From: a virus
Direction: 5' to 3' (one strand)
IMG/VR virus record: IMGVR_UViG_3300021961_000070
Location: 1 to 64,000 of that record
DNA: 64,000 nucleotides
Part shown: one piece after another, positions 1,425 to 63,655 of the stretch
Position numbering within the stretch: position 1 is the first letter of the stretch
Layout of the letters: each line of letters opens with the position of its first letter
Program-made: the position numbers and the translations under genes
Notes under the pieces: model-generated
Databases searched by the model: none
The model's input: the letters and a program-made list of their open reading frames with translations, nothing else
What the model was told of the DNA's origin: nothing

Positions 1425-3620
1425 TTACCTTTCTTTTATTTTATTTAACAGATCAGAAATTAATAACTGTTGCTCTTTAATCGCTTGTGTAATAATAGGT
1501 ATTAATTTTTCATATTGTACCGCTAAAAAGTTTTCGCCAGATATACTTTTATTTTTATCATCATCAAACGGAGCCCTCTTAACTACTTCAGGTACAGAGG
1601 TCTGTATTTGTTGAGCAATTAATCCAACCTTTCTAGAGTAATCTTTATAGCCATATTTTTCAGCTAATCTATTTTGTGTATAATATATTCCTGTCATACT
1701 TAATATTTTTTCTAAACAATTATCTATAACTCTTATTTTTGTTTTCAATCTTTCATCAGAATAACCGGCAGTAATATCACCAGATGCTCTTATTGATCCT
1801 GTCGGTCCTACTGCCGTATTGATTCCTAGTGCGGAAACATTTGGTGTTGATGTTGTTCCTTGAGGTCCTTGGGGTCCTTGAAAACCTGATGCATTCTGTG
1901 CTCCAACAGGACCTTGAACTCCTTGAGGACCTTGAGGACCAGAAACTCCTTGAAAACCAGAGACACCTGGAACGCCTGTTGATCCTGTTGAGCCTGTAGG
2001 TCCTTGAGGACCTTGAGCACCTGGTACACCTGTTGGTCCTGTAGGTCCCGCAAAACCTTGAAAACCTGCGACTCCAGGAACACCTGTTGGTCCTGTGGTT
2101 CCTGTTGGACCTTGAGGACCTTGAGCACCTGAAACACCTGTTGGCCCTGTAGGTCCCGCAAAACCTTGAAAACCCGAAACGCCTGGAACACCAGTAGGTC
2201 CAGGAAAACCTGGAACTCCTTGGAAACCAGAAACTCCTGGAACACCTGTTGGTCCTGTAGTTCCTGTTGGACCCTGCGGACCTTGAGCACCTGGTACACC
2301 TGTTGGTCCTGTAGGTCCCGCAAAACCTTGAAAACCCGAAATGCCTGGAACACCTGTTGGTCCTGTAGTTCCTGTTGGACCCTGCGGACCTTGTGCACCT
2401 GGTACACCTGTTGGTCCTGTAGGTCCTGGTACGCCTTGAAATCCAGAGACACCTGGAACACCAGTAGGTCCAGGAAAACCTGGAACTCCTTGAAAACCTG
2501 AAACACCTGGAACACCTGTTGGTCCTGTGGTCCCTGTTGGACCTTGAGGACCTTGAGCACCTGGTACACCTGTTGGTCCCGTTGGTCCTGGTACACCTTG
2601 AAAGCCTGGGACTCCAGGAACGCCTTGAGGTCCTGTCAACTGAAAAAAACCCTGAGGGCCTTGTGCACCTGGTACACCTGTTGGTCCTGTAGGTCCTGGT
2701 ACGCCTTGAAATCCAGAGACACCTGGAACACCAGTAGGTCCAGGAAAACCTGGAACTCCTTGAAAACCAGAGACACCTGGAACGCCTGTTGGTCCTGTGG
2801 TTCCTGTTGGACCTTGAGGACCTTGAGCACCTGGAACACCTGTTGAGCCTGTAGGACCTGCAAATCCTTGGAAACCAGAAATTCCTGGAACTCCTGTTGG
2901 TCCAGGAAAACCTGGAACTCCTTGGAAACCAGAAACTCCTGGAACACCGGTAGCTCCTGTAGGTCCTGTTGGACCTTGAGGACCTTGAGCACCTGATACA
3001 CCTGTTGAGCCTGTAGGTCCTGATACACCTTGAAAACCAGAAATGCCAGGAACACCGGTAGCTCCTGTAGGTCCTGGTACTCCTTGAAATCCAGAAACGC
3101 CAGGAACACCGGTAGCTCCTGTAGGTCCTGTTGGGCCTTGGGTACCTTGAGCACCTGGTACGCCTGTGGGTCCTGTAGGTCCTGGTACTCCTTGTAAACC
3201 AGAAACTCCTGGAACACCGGTAGCTCCTGTAGGTCCTGTTGGACCTTGAGGACCTTGAGCGCCTGGTACGCCTGTGGGTCCTGTAGGTCCTGGTACTCCT
3301 TGAAATCCAGAAACGCCAGGAACACCTGTCGGTCCTGTTGGTCCTGGTACGCCTTGAAAACCAAAGACACCTGGAACACCGGTAGCTCCTGTAGGTCCTG
3401 TTGGACCTTGAGGACCTTGAGCACCAGAAACGCCAGTAACGCCTTGAGGTCCTTGCGGGCCTTGTACGCCTTGAACTCCCGTTGAACCTGTGACTCCTTG
3501 AAATCCTGGGAAACCGACAATATTATTGCTTGGACCAATCCAATCACCAGCAGTATCAATGACTGTGGTTTCGTTTACTGCTAAACCAGTTTTTATTATA
3601 AAATTGGAATTGTTAGCCAA
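1425..3620 (-). CDS. Collagen-like fibre with C-terminal S74 intramolecular chaperone
   Basis: 731 residues. Residues 1-36 form a cap (MANNSNFIIKTGL... WIGPSNNIVG). Residues ~37-590 are Gly-X-Y collagen repeats rich in GPT, GVP, GFQ, GAQ and GPQ. Residues ~605-731 are a Peptidase_S74 / endosialidase-type chaperone: the YSDERLK motif (Ser ~621, Lys nearby) begins the domain, followed by GLIAQQIQ and VQYEKLIP and a terminal coiled coil. In this family the domain trimerises the fibre and cleaves itself off at the Ser. The collagen repeat is interrupted once (QGFFQLTGPQ). Start codon is TTG at 3620 with AAGGGG upstream; an ATG eight codons' length upstream is out of frame. The next gene starts 7 bases downstream, so the two collagen genes form one unit. 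Confidence 0.9.
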   Translation of the reverse strand: MANNSNFIIKTGLAVNETTVIDTAGDWIGPSNNIVGFPGFQGVTGSTGVQGVQGPQGPQGVTGVSGAQGPQGPTGPTGATGVPGVFGFQGVPGPTGPTGVPGVSGFQGVPGPTGPTGVPGAQGPQGPTGPTGATGVPGVSGLQGVPGPTGPTGVPGAQGTQGPTGPTGATGVPGVSGFQGVPGPTGATGVPGISGFQGVSGPTGSTGVSGAQGPQGPTGPTGATGVPGVSGFQGVPGFPGPTGVPGISGFQGFAGPTGSTGVPGAQGPQGPTGTTGPTGVPGVSGFQGVPGFPGPTGVPGVSGFQGVPGPTGPTGVPGAQGPQGFFQLTGPQGVPGVPGFQGVPGPTGPTGVPGAQGPQGPTGTTGPTGVPGVSGFQGVPGFPGPTGVPGVSGFQGVPGPTGPTGVPGAQGPQGPTGTTGPTGVPGISGFQGFAGPTGPTGVPGAQGPQGPTGTTGPTGVPGVSGFQGVPGFPGPTGVPGVSGFQGFAGPTGPTGVSGAQGPQGPTGTTGPTGVPGVAGFQGFAGPTGPTGVPGAQGPQGPTGSTGSTGVPGVSGFQGVSGPQGPQGVQGPVGAQNASGFQGPQGPQGTTSTPNVSALGINTAVGPTGSIRASGDITAGYSDERLKTKIRVIDNCLEKILSMTGIYYTQNRLAEKYGYKDYSRKVGLIAQQIQTSVPEVVKRAPFDDDKNKSISGENFLAVQYEKLIPIITQAIKEQQLLISDLLNKIKER
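1850..3520 (-). repeat. Second collagen Gly-X-Y coding repeat tract
   Basis: Tandem blocks encoding GPTGPTGVPGAQGPQ-type sequence recur about every 100-130 bp, some nearly identical (for example around 2240-2420 and 2690-2830). The sequence differs from the tract at 1-1310 in favoured triplets (GVP and GPT here, GVQ and GFQ there), so the two genes are paralogous in design but not recent duplicates. Confidence 0.8.
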
Positions 3621-44160: not shown

Positions 44161-44697
44161 TTATGCCAAAATAAATTTTTCTTTATTAATTCTTTCGTAT
44201 CTATTTCTATAAAATATGTGTTGTCCTATTTGACTAGTTTTTTGTAATTTCCATCTCGGATTAACTCTGACGGAATGAAAATGTGTGGCTCCTTTGGAAA
44301 CATCTTCTATAAAATGATAATAAACCGCAAGAAACACTGCCAAATCCAAGATATCATTATACAATGAAGTGGATCTTATTGTCAACCTTTTCTTAGCAGT
44401 GGTTGGATCACAATACCAAGAAAATTGACAAATTCCTCTTATCTTTTGATGTACAACTCCGCAAACTGTATTTGGATAGTTTCCTGTTGAAACGCGATTT
44501 AGTGTGACAAATCCAACAGCCATTTTGCCGTTATGAGATTCGCTGGCTGCTTCAAAATAGATGTTATCTGCTAAACATACGACCTGCTTCTGCGCTTCTG
44601 CGGTAAGATCCCTGAAGAGAATCGTATTTGGTATAGCGTAAACGTTTTTCACTATAAGCATAAAAAAAATCACACTAAGAAAAGTTAAACTTTTCAT
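44161..44697 (-). CDS. SleB-type cell wall hydrolase with signal peptide
   Basis: 178 residues. Residues 1-22 form a signal peptide (MKSLTFLSVIFFMLIVKNVYA). The Hydrolase_2 (SleB/CwlJ) core follows: VVCLADNIYFEAASESHNGKMAVGFVTLNRVSTGNYPNTVCGVVHQ, CQFSWYCD, and THFHSVRVNPRWKLQ. The Glu of YFEA (~49) is the catalytic residue of the family. It is likely the endolysin, exported by the host Sec system, which would avoid the need for a classical holin. RBS AGGAGG lies 6-7 bases before the ATG. It is the first gene after the tmRNA. Confidence 0.85.
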   Translation of the reverse strand: MKSLTFLSVIFFMLIVKNVYAIPNTILFRDLTAEAQKQVVCLADNIYFEAASESHNGKMAVGFVTLNRVSTGNYPNTVCGVVHQKIRGICQFSWYCDPTTAKKRLTIRSTSLYNDILDLAVFLAVYYHFIEDVSKGATHFHSVRVNPRWKLQKTSQIGQHIFYRNRYERINKEKFILA

Positions 44698-44718
44698 TTG
44701 ATACCTCCTAGTAGTGAT

Positions 44719-45062
44719 GGTGGGTTATTCTGTTACGAGGAAACCCACCGAAACCCTAAGCCGTGTTTAGGCGGCTAATGCAAAGATTTCTTCATTTGCG
44801 TTTATTGAATTTACTTTTTACGACTCTCTGTGTCGGATCGTCCATGTCTCTACTTATTGCCCTGTCGAAACCAGGTCAGGCCCATTAGTAAACTCTCTGC
44901 GATACTCGAAATCACGGTGACCCTACTTCCTGGCTGGTTCTTGCTTTAGTCGACTTTGGCAAGTGTTGCAGTTGTTCCAGTGTAGTCACTCAAAGAGTTT
45001 ACTGGTGGACCTGGGCGGAATCGAACCGCCGTCCAGAACACCTTTCGATCTACTTCATACGA
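44719..45062 (-). ncRNA. ssrA: Circularly permuted (two-piece) tmRNA, tag ANEEIFALAA
   Basis: On the minus strand the 3' (acceptor) piece comes first: T-arm GGCGG-TTCGATT-CCGCC (45014-45030), acceptor strand CAGGTCC, A, CCA (45003-45013). After a 119-base segment the 5' end begins at 44883 with GGGCCTGACCTGGTTTCGAC. GGGCCTG pairs with CAGGTCC over 7 bp and gives the G3-U70 pair that makes tmRNA a substrate of alanyl-tRNA synthetase. The tag frame at 44799-44767 reads ANEEIFALAA then TAA, aligning residue for residue with ANDENYALAA of E. coli, and is followed by a stop-containing hairpin (CCTAA/TTAGG). A strong stem (44719-44749) marks the probable 3' end of the coding piece. The 5' end of the acceptor piece is approximate. 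Confidence 0.92.
44884..45002 (-). ncRNA. Structured segment removed from the tmRNA precursor (element A)
   Basis: It lies between CCA of the acceptor piece and the 5' end of the coding piece. Its ends pair perfectly over 9 bp (44888-44896 with 44994-45002). Inside are GTGAC/GTCAC (44985-44989 with 44917-44921), CTGG/CCAG, CTTGC/GCAAG and a T-loop-like hairpin GTGAT-TTCGAGT-ATCGC (44899-44915). It can be aligned along its whole length with element B at 62828-62951 in the tRNA array, with base-pair changes that keep the helices. Confidence 0.75.
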
Positions 45063-45077
45063 TCATAGCTTTATTTA

Positions 45078-45266
45078 TTACCACCAACCTTTAGAATCTG
45101 TTCTTCCATAAAAACAATGACCAACCATTTCTCTACCTTTTAGTTCATATTCTTTTCTTTTAGCAATCAGTGCTTTCTGACAATCTTCTTTAGTCTCAAA
45201 TTTAGCGATTCTTGAATGTTCAGGATTGGTACCTAATAATGTGATGGATAATATCCAAACCCACAT
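45078..45266 (-). CDS. Small hypothetical protein with N-terminal hydrophobic segment
   Basis: 62 residues: a hydrophobic start (MWVWILSITLLGTN) that could be a signal or anchor, then EHSRIAKFETKEDCQKALIAKRKEYEL and a C-terminus with Cys and Trp (HCFYGRTDSKGWW). The F-x-T-x-E-x-C-x-x-A-L pattern resembles many tiny phage and bacterial secreted proteins. It lies 4 bases after the 2OG oxygenase gene and just upstream of the tmRNA. No function recognised. Confidence 0.55.
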   Translation of the reverse strand: MWVWILSITLLGTNPEHSRIAKFETKEDCQKALIAKRKEYELKGREMVGHCFYGRTDSKGWW

Positions 45267-62565: not shown

Positions 62566-62576
62566 GAAAAGGTATG

Positions 62577-62704
62577 GTTACCATCACCCGTTTAAGAGTC
62601 CTCTTGGACTCCCCTATTCTCCACTCCTCGTTGGCAAGACGTTCAATAGGGTTAAGTAGTCGCCCTGATGGTTGGGCGGATTTGCCATCATCAATTTTGC
62701 AGAA
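62577..62704 (-). ncRNA. Structured tRNA spacer with H-type pseudoknot (element E)
   Basis: On the minus strand TGATGG (62685-62690) pairs with CCATCA (62666-62671) and CGCCC (62674-62678) with GGGCG (62661-62665) in crossed order, an H-type pseudoknot. It is followed by a CCCTATT/AATAGGG hairpin (62612-62651) and a GAGTCC/GGACTC hairpin (62596-62611). No protein frame or tRNA fits. Confidence 0.55.
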
Positions 62705-62826
62705 CCATATTGAAACGCACTGAGATAACCGTGACCAGCGGGGCCTTTTTACATCTCTCTACAAGTATACGCACCAGGCAGTCACTCCTGTTCTGAGTAT
62801 ACTATCGATTATGCGCTTCAATATGG
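62705..62826 (-). ncRNA. Structured tRNA spacer closed by CATATTGAAAC stem (element C)
   Basis: Ends 62705-62719 and 62812-62826 pair over 15 bp with one G-U. Inside, AGTATAC/GTATACT (62764-62770 with 62797-62803) forms a hairpin whose loop base run GTGAC (62781-62785) can pair with GTCAC (62731-62735) outside it. Confidence 0.6.
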
Positions 62827-62827
62827 T

Positions 62828-62951
62828 CATATTGAAACATTCTGTGGCACTTGAATCCGCGATAGCCCCTCTTCACGGCTGATCCTTGCTTTGTCTAGAA
62901 TTGGCAAGCAATCAGTTGTTCCGCTGTAGCTACTCAGAATATTTCAATATG
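62828..62951 (-). ncRNA. Structured tRNA spacer homologous to the tmRNA insert (element B)
   Basis: Ends 62828-62844 and 62935-62951 pair over 17 bp with one G-U. The interior aligns base for base with the segment inside the tmRNA gene (44888-45002): shared GGAACAACTG, CTTGCC and AAAGCAAG, and helices whose pairs change together (GTGAC/GTCAC there, GTAGC/GCTAT here; CTGG/CCAG there, GCGG/CCGT here). Confidence 0.72.
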
Positions 62952-63026
62952 GTGCCCTCTCTCAGATTCGAACTGAGACTTTACGGCTTCTAAGACCGTC
63001 CTCTCTACCAATTGGAGTAAGAGGGC
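62950..63026 (-). tRNA. tRNA with UAG anticodon, class I shape (Leu by anticodon)
   Basis: Acceptor GCCCTCT/AGAGGGC, anticodon loop CTTAGAA in stem ACGGT/GCCGT, short variable loop, T-arm CTCAG-TTCGAAT-CTGAG, encoded CCA. UAG would read CUA (Leu), but bacterial Leu tRNAs have a long variable arm, as the Leu(UAA) copy at 59807 does. Confidence 0.8.
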
Positions 63027-63185: not shown

Positions 63186-63186
63186 G

Positions 63187-63275
63187 ATTAAGGGGCGCAA
63201 TTGGATGTCCTCTCGACATTCTTTTGCTGTCGTTTAAGACTGAGCGATGTTACTCGCTAGACCCCCATCTAAACT
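63187..63275 (-). other. tRNA-like structured spacer (element F)
   Basis: Between tRNA-Tyr and tRNA-Asp. GGGG (63262-63266 region) can pair with CCCC (63192-63195), enclosing hairpins GCGA/TCGC (63244-63257) and ATGTC-GAGAG-GACAT (63205-63219). The arrangement recalls a tRNA with D- and T-like arms, but no acceptable anticodon or TTC loop is present. Possibly a decayed tRNA. Confidence 0.4.
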
Positions 63276-63367: not shown

Positions 63368-63441
63368 TGGTACGGGCACCGAGAATCGAACTCGGATTTA
63401 CTGGTTAAAAGCCAGTTACTTTACCACTAAGTTATACCCGC
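63368..63441 (-). tRNA. tRNA-Lys(UUU)
   Basis: Acceptor GCGGGTA/TGCCCGT with two G-U pairs, anticodon stem ACTGG/CCAGT with loop CTTTTAA, T-loop TTCGATT, encoded CCA. Confidence 0.93.
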
Positions 63442-63447
63442 GAATTT

Positions 63448-63523
63448 TGGTGGGCCCAGTAGGTTTCGAACCTACGACCAATGAATTATGAGTTCACTGC
63501 TCTGACCTCTGAGCTATAGGCCC
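63448..63523 (-). tRNA. tRNA-Met(CAU), elongator type
   Basis: Acceptor GGGCCTA/TGGGCCC, anticodon loop CTCATAA in stem GTGAA/TTCAT, T-loop TTCGAAA, encoded CCA. Resembles the copy at 62488. Its 5' end touches the stem of element D. Confidence 0.93.
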
Positions 63524-63655
63524 ATATTGAAACACACTCGACCGTCTCTCTTTTACACAGCAGACCGGAGCGACCGGGGCTTGAACTGTTTATGCGATAT
63601 CCCGTTTTAAACCAGGGACGGACAAAGCGCCACAGTGTAAGTGTGTTTCAATATG
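63523..63655 (-). ncRNA. Structured tRNA spacer closed by CATATTGAAAC stem (element D)
   Basis: Ends 63523-63538 and 63640-63655 pair perfectly over 16 bp. It fills the gap between tRNA-Glu and tRNA-Met, so the stem would bring the two tRNAs together. Inside are TTACAC/GTGTAA, GTCCC/GGGAT and a CCGG-TCGCT-CCGG hairpin, and CCGTC can pair with GACGG across the second stem. Confidence 0.6.

Follow-up and report, generated by a model that had tools for sequence, protein, structure and literature searches.

A tmRNA gene that is split into two pieces in permuted order leaves a segment between them, and the locus described here raises the question of whether such a segment can be an RNA gene in its own right. 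The window (the whole stretch of DNA that was analysed, 64,000 nucleotides) comes from a virus record of 70,647 bases (G000); a second, near-identical record is longer (77,977 bases). Judged from the open reading frames, the structural genes of this phage look T4-like, and a tRNA array runs along the minus strand from about 59.7 kb to past the end of the window. The sequence-only reading had proposed that the segment cut from the tmRNA precursor is a conserved RNA element which also occurs in this tRNA array, and had suggested a processing signal, a small ribozyme or a free regulatory RNA as its function.

The segment within the tmRNA gene and its counterpart

The permuted tmRNA gene lies on the minus strand at 44767-45064 (RF04321, 126.3 bits; RF01850, 132.8 bits), or at 44676-45095 as called by ARAGORN. 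Its match to RF01850 is of the betaproteobacterial type and its tag peptide is ANEEIFALAA. Element A, on the minus strand at 44884-45002, exactly the interval that had been proposed, takes up everything that separates the CCACCA of the acceptor piece from the GGGCC of the coding piece; the form of the gene suggests that it would be excised from the tmRNA precursor. Element B, also on the minus strand at 62830-62949, is closed by a helix termed P1 and lies immediately 3' of the CCA of a tRNA-Leu(tag) gene (62950-63026, ARAGORN). As had been suspected, the two are related: they align over their full length and have five helices and a T-arm in common. A single covariance model, CM R1, which has both among its ten training sequences, matches each end to end, with 130.3 bits for A and 132.4 bits for B (E of about 1e-28 or lower).

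The minus-strand sequence of A is GUAAACUCUUUG-A-GUGAC-UACA-CUGG-AACAA-CUG-CAACA-CUUGC-CAAA-GUCGAC-UAAA-GCAAG-AAC-CAG-CCAG-GAAG-UAGG-GUCAC-CG-UGAU-UUCGAGU-AUCG-CAGAGAGUUUAC. The alignment and pair counts place the 5' strand of P1 (GUAAACUCUUUG) at 44991-45002, opposite the 3' strand (CAGAGAGUUUAC) at 44888-44899, and UAAU joins the latter to the coding piece. The helices of A and B that had been singled out as compensatory (GTGAC/GTCAC against GTAGC/GCTAT, and CTGG/CCAG against GCGG/CCGT) are real and covary family-wide. The hairpin described as T-loop-like is also borne out by sequence and alignment, as UUCGAGU in A (44904-44910) and UUCAAGU in B (62849-62855), and its stem pairs covary in the family. 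One point had to be corrected, in that CTTGC and GCAAG, which were taken to be unpaired, pair with each other as helix P5, while CTG pairs with CAG as P4. The most telling feature of the element was absent from the sequence-only reading. This is a self-complementary apical hexamer, a proposed kissing loop, which alignment together with palindrome and covariation tests places at 44949-44954 in A (GUCGAC) and at 62894-62899 in B (UCUAGA).

Relatives of the window phage, found through its baseplate protein, mostly lack the element, and several of them have a permuted tmRNA. The intervening segments of permuted tmRNAs in sister and other phages are 56-126 nt long, those of sister phages 56-75 nt, and have a similar closing helix without the core of the element. 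Thus, P1 appears to belong to a general 'closed spacer' architecture, in which the core is cargo. An unannotated permuted tmRNA with the tag VAANDADYSVARYA was observed in Xanthomonas phage X1 (L003, OQ427096.1, about 120978-121428). X1 was rejected as a carrier of the element: the tmRNA region has its sole blastn match there, in the acceptor piece, and the 126-nt intervening segment of X1 lacks the element.

An RNA family with a covarying fold and a palindromic loop

At least 33 distinct members were found in about 40 IMG/VR phage records, through seven pattern scans of IMG/VR on different conserved stretches and through CM R1; more than 20 of the 33 were found with the model, after it had been built. 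Full-length members score 68-148 bits, and the range from 25 to 67 bits is empty except for members cut by the end of a locus, which separates members cleanly from background. Members beyond the 33 listed are likely to exist. Weak second matches in loci L212 and L275 (21-25 bits) belong to a different P1-closed cassette. The carriers are diverse, with a T4-type major capsid protein (PF07068) in six of the 26 records examined; the records reach 285 kb, and most, including that of the window, are fragments.

A distant blastn search with several members or the consensus against 50,697 GenBank phages returned no match, and there is consequently no known isolate or host. Two matches to a main-clade pattern among 84,980 bacterial and archaeal genomes were rejected by the covariance model as chance. 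Rfam release 15, scanned down to weak matches (E<=5), contains nothing that matches over A or B except host tmRNA models spanning A; no HDV-like ribozyme was matched over either. For the members in L212, L262, L133, L117 and L013 (E<=1), only the neighbouring tRNA, tmRNA and GOLLD sequences match. The elements are called as tRNA neither by ARAGORN nor by RF00005, only P1 and the T-arm being tRNA-like, and YrlA RNA (RF02553) has no match over them, its only trace being a weak one over the tRNAs at 63384-63496 (26 against 69 bits). 5S-like RNA and prohead RNA were dropped on the Rfam scans. No description of the element was found in the open-access literature. The element, which the sequence-only reading could not match to a known class, has no match in Rfam either, and the evidence strongly supports A and B as two copies of an undescribed family of phage noncoding RNAs of about 105-120 nt.

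The consensus is a nested three-way junction in which P1, of 7-15 bp, encloses an arm made of P2 to P5 and, immediately 5' of the 3' strand of P1, a T-arm. In a divergent clade P1 has just 7-9 bp and the leader is short. Within the arm, P2 has 5 bp, P3 4 bp, P4 3 bp (CUG/CAG, CAC/GUG or CUC/GAG) and P5 5 bp. A conserved internal loop (UACA / GAAG(AG)nnGG) separates P2 from P3, the one-sided loop AACAA follows P3 within a conserved GGAACAA, and the apical loop spans 13-16 nt. The T-arm has a tRNA-type loop, UUCRAGY, and is placed against the 3' strand of P1 as the T-arm of a tRNA lies beside the acceptor stem. Neither edge of the element, nor any site nearby, is conserved in sequence or distance.

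In the alignment of 33 sequences, 92.7% of paired cells can pair, compared with 72.5% in shuffles, and 29 of 36 pairs show changes on both sides; the covariation score is 0.583, against 0.230, and is lost when the partner is slid by 1-3 columns. As this alignment had been fitted to the structure, an R-scape-like test with a tree-based null was added, in which parsimony substitutions on a FastTree tree were redistributed over columns, with a G-test, average-product correction and 60 null alignments. At E<=0.05 the test picks out 13 pairs among 7,021 pairs of columns, and all 13 belong to the proposed fold, coming from P1, P3, P4, P5, the T-stem and the apical palindrome, which contributes all three of its pairs. 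The suggestion that selection acts on RNA structure is thus upheld. Many members have a weak T-stem, with about 70% of cells paired in this helix and a loop-closing pair that is usually non-standard, and thermodynamic folding alone often favours another fold, by 1-8 kcal/mol.

The palindrome is maintained while its sequence changes. Counted anywhere within the loop, a palindrome of at least 6 nt is present in 24 of 25 distinct apical loops; in 20,000 shuffles the count averaged 4.4 and never exceeded 12. Nine hexamers are found (UCUAGA, GUCGAC, AACGUU, UCCGGA, CUGCAG, CUCGAG, CCGCGG, ACCGGU and GCCGGC), and four members have GCCGGU, which is self-complementary only with wobble pairs. The exception, in L222, is a remodelled 30-nt apical loop. 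When the first ten members were aligned with MAFFT, without consideration of the palindrome, each of the ten showed a palindrome in one and the same set of columns, four sequences being represented. On a tree made without the loop, the hexamer has switched at least some 13 times, with 40 single-base changes, and every switch ends in a self-complementary sequence; for this test the hexamers of longer and shorter loops were registered by hand, the register being fixed within one loop-length class.

As adjacent central bases of a palindrome cannot pair within one molecule, the pairing must be intermolecular, and a palindrome that is kept while its sequence changes and its columns covary is the signature of a palindromic kissing-loop homodimer. 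Two molecules of the element are expected, from their sequences, to join through a kissing loop of six base pairs into a symmetric dimer. Natural RNA homo-oligomers are rare. The one proposed here is predicted from covariation alone, is small enough to solve and is found in many phages, and the natural palindrome variants are built-in compensatory mutants with which the dimer interface could be tested directly. A palindromic apical kissing loop is known to drive homodimerisation in HIV-1, at the DIS (PMC7357161), and the predicted self-duplex energies of the element's hexamers, -3.5 to -11.7 kcal/mol, span those of the DIS hexamers. In the window, duplexes of -7.5 kcal/mol for A with A and -5.2 kcal/mol for B with B are predicted, against +0.3 kcal/mol for A with B, and by this calculation the two hexamers cannot pair with each other.

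Genomic placement and proposed mode of action

Nearly all members lie within tRNA arrays or beside or inside a split tmRNA. Intervening segments of permuted tmRNAs house those of L013, L029/L030 and L162 as well as A, and in L202 the element lies 3 nt upstream of a permuted tmRNA. The member in L241 stands directly 3' of a tmRNA-like acceptor piece; in this locus an apparent acceptor piece (3158-3250) is followed by the element and then by tRNA-Val, with no coding piece behind, which looks like a decayed or rearranged split tmRNA. Parsimony on the tree gives four changes between tRNA arrays and tmRNA. For at least 20 of the 33 members, the start lies no more than a few bases 3' of the CCA of a tRNA or tmRNA. 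The next tRNA often follows the 3' end directly (L004, L166, L173, L212 and L156), and in several cases the element fills the entire gap, as between tRNA-Trp and tRNA-Gly in L166 and between tRNA-Arg and tRNA-His in L212. Members in L005, L117, L222 and L248 do not adjoin a CCA, and ARAGORN finds no tRNA immediately beside the element in L186 and L222. Each of the 40 element-bearing records has one strong copy, with the exception of the window phage, which has two, and the arrays concerned can hold 10-38 tRNAs.

Other helix-closed spacers were observed in the same surroundings. Closing arms of a common style (TATTGAAA...TTTCAATATG, TATAAAAACAC...GTGTTTCTATATGG) enclose unrelated interiors in the window and in other phages. 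On the minus strand of the window, cassettes C (62701-62828) and E (63524-63653) have similar long terminal helices (TATTGAA...TTCAATATG) around interiors unrelated to those of A and B; E exactly fills the gap from the CCA of tRNA-Glu to the tRNA-Met 5' end, while C directly follows element B, rather than a tRNA, and is absent at the same place in the related L131 record. Segment D (62566-62700, minus strand; GCAAAATTGATGATGGCAAATCCGCC...), downstream of B and C, is conserved at 7865-8000 of L131 beside the element of that record, and is possibly another structured RNA. A 90-nt spacer between tRNA-Tyr and tRNA-Asp (63186-63275, minus strand) resembles a degenerate tRNA, with GGGGG...CCCC ends and no ARAGORN call. 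In other phages, a second closed-helix family with the core GAUACCUGGCAACUGGACGCAGGGGCUAUC..AAAGAGUAGGGC occurs in tRNA arrays (L212, 1280-1418; L275, 10613-10749, minus strand; L242, 2497-2617), and in L216 and L242 the element is directly preceded by a 3' arm in the style of this family; a further spacer type, GTTTTAGGATAC...GTATCCTGTTATT, is repeated between tRNAs in L014, L004 and L022. The spacer between tRNA-His and tRNA-Trp in L212 (1958-2044) reaches 45.8 bits with the tRNA-Sec model, which has a cut-off of 47, and may be a phage selenocysteine-type tRNA.

Of the three functions that had been put forward, the free regulatory RNA fits best, since phages carry a single copy, the conserved core lies well away from the ends, and both ends and contexts vary. 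It is probable, on sequence grounds, that the element is an RNA gene of the phage whose product, in part tRNA-shaped, is released by the processing of tRNA or tmRNA precursors, dimerises and acts in trans as a free RNA. Since such precursors are cut at 5' ends and at the CCA, cleavage could set a P1-closed spacer free in one piece. The element would be carried in tRNA or split-tmRNA transcripts and freed as the neighbouring tRNA and tmRNA ends are trimmed; closed by P1 and ending at the processing sites, it would be protected, and with A the product would be the very piece that the tmRNA precursor discards. Freed molecules would then pair through their apical hexamers to form a homodimer, in which each P1/T-arm end may pass for one half of a tRNA with proteins that recognise the acceptor-T minihelix. 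The dimer would act in trans, most probably by mimicking a tRNA and engaging a factor of translation or of tRNA handling. In that event, what a split tmRNA discards, and the spaces that separate phage tRNA genes, can be genes themselves.

Much of the placement would also suit a signal acting in cis, with the P1/T-arm end mimicking a pre-tRNA, RNase P or a double-strand RNase cutting where P1 ends and thereby making the upstream 3' end, and the core as scaffolding. P1 stacked on a T-arm has the shape of a minimal RNase P substrate, the short P1 and leader of the divergent clade fit this role, and so do the frequent starts beside a CCA and the contact with the next tRNA. However, one copy in an array of tens of tRNAs does not serve every site that needs processing, some members are not beside a CCA, and the segments of related permuted tmRNAs manage without the element, which weakens the processing signal as it had been proposed. 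The most conserved parts (the long arm, the internal loops and the palindrome) would moreover be superfluous, and we consider this reading unlikely. A still smaller chance is given to the idea that the loop only pairs two tRNA or tmRNA precursors and so controls their processing, with no free RNA formed. Nearly all members do lie inside such transcripts, and the differing hexamers of A and B would keep the two transcripts of the window phage apart, but a single copy, a conserved core and a T-arm are more than mere tethering calls for, and a P1 flush with the mature ends suggests release.

The third function, a small ribozyme, is without positive evidence and appears very improbable, although a new self-cleaving RNA that frees tRNA or tmRNA ends would account for highly conserved internal loops and for a position directly 3' of tRNAs, like that of theta ribozymes (PMC10879173); some ribozymes (Hatchet, VS) also dimerise (PMC7357161). 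Against it stand the want of any Rfam ribozyme match, a consensus without a nested double pseudoknot, the variability of sequence and distance at and near both edges, and neighbouring tRNAs that encode their CCA, whereas theta ribozymes mostly follow tRNAs that do not. Both the ribozyme and the processing signal are thus less likely than a free RNA gene. Least probable of all, and scarcely to be expected, is that the palindrome is a site in the DNA, for protein binding, nicking or recombination, or that the element is a mobile insertion module with an incidental RNA fold. The hexamers are classic type II palindromes, the family has moved between tRNA arrays and tmRNA, and P1-closed cassettes with unrelated interiors have arm sequences in common. 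Nevertheless, a protein site would retain its sequence, while here the sequence changes and the place is constant, namely the very loop that caps a covarying RNA helix; neither a target duplication nor an encoded protein was seen.

Comparison with known systems

The intervening sequences of permuted tmRNAs are normally spacers, absent from the mature RNA. Element A is such a sequence, but it belongs to a conserved RNA family whose members lie outside tmRNA as well. Another case of unusual cargo is an intact tRNA-Ala gene within the intervening sequence of a permuted tmRNA (PMC11915505). Theta ribozymes, which are HDV-like and lie at the 3' ends of phage tRNAs, occur mostly with tRNAs that lack an encoded CCA, only 4.5% having one (PMC10879173); their HDV fold contains a pseudoknot, and the element differs from it in fold, its consensus having none. 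The dimerisation loops of the HIV-1 DIS and the oskar 3'UTR likewise present a six-nt palindrome in an apical loop (PMC7357161), and the DIS hexamers have similar predicted energies. These loops are parts of long mRNAs or genomes and have no T-arm, whereas the element is a small phage RNA that has one.

GOLLD and ROOL are encoded by phages near tRNA islands and form homo-oligomers in which kissing loops, among other contacts, hold the molecules together and the intermolecular pairs covary (PMC12286853). They are hundreds of nucleotides long, compared with about 115 for the element, and form a cage, whereas a single palindromic loop predicts a two-fold dimer; in whole-Rfam scans neither GOLLD (RF02032) nor ROOL matches over the element. 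GOLLD is found beside the element in only three of the 40 records, 65-95 nt upstream of it, in two lineages (G003:134321-134781; G054:89368-89831 and G055:113833-114296). In G054, a small helix-closed spacer of element-like style was observed on each side of GOLLD. A bolder version of the preferred reading, possible but doubtful, would make the element a small counterpart of GOLLD and ROOL, an RNA machine of about 115 nt that has tRNA-like ends, dimerises by its kissing loop and in infection acts in trans on the tRNA or translation system, for instance as a decoy that occupies tRNA-handling enzymes or host defence enzymes that cleave tRNA.

The nearest functional parallel to the element appears, by analogy, to lie in the stable RNAs that phages encode in their tRNA islands. 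Species 1 and 2 of T4 (rnaC and rnaD; AF158101, 70908-71171) are small stable RNAs at the end of the phage tRNA cluster, and the element likewise sits in tRNA arrays. rnaD starts directly after tRNA-Arg, as the element often does after a tRNA, and rnaC (species 1) ends in a canonical T-arm, which the element has too. Homology was rejected, since CM R1, run with filters off over the T4 tRNA region, gave a best score of 7.9 bits, at neither rnaC nor rnaD, and we know of no comparable covarying palindrome in species 1 or 2. The element offers a compact case in which to ask what structured RNAs beside phage tRNA islands, T4 species 1 and 2, GOLLD and ROOL among them, do.
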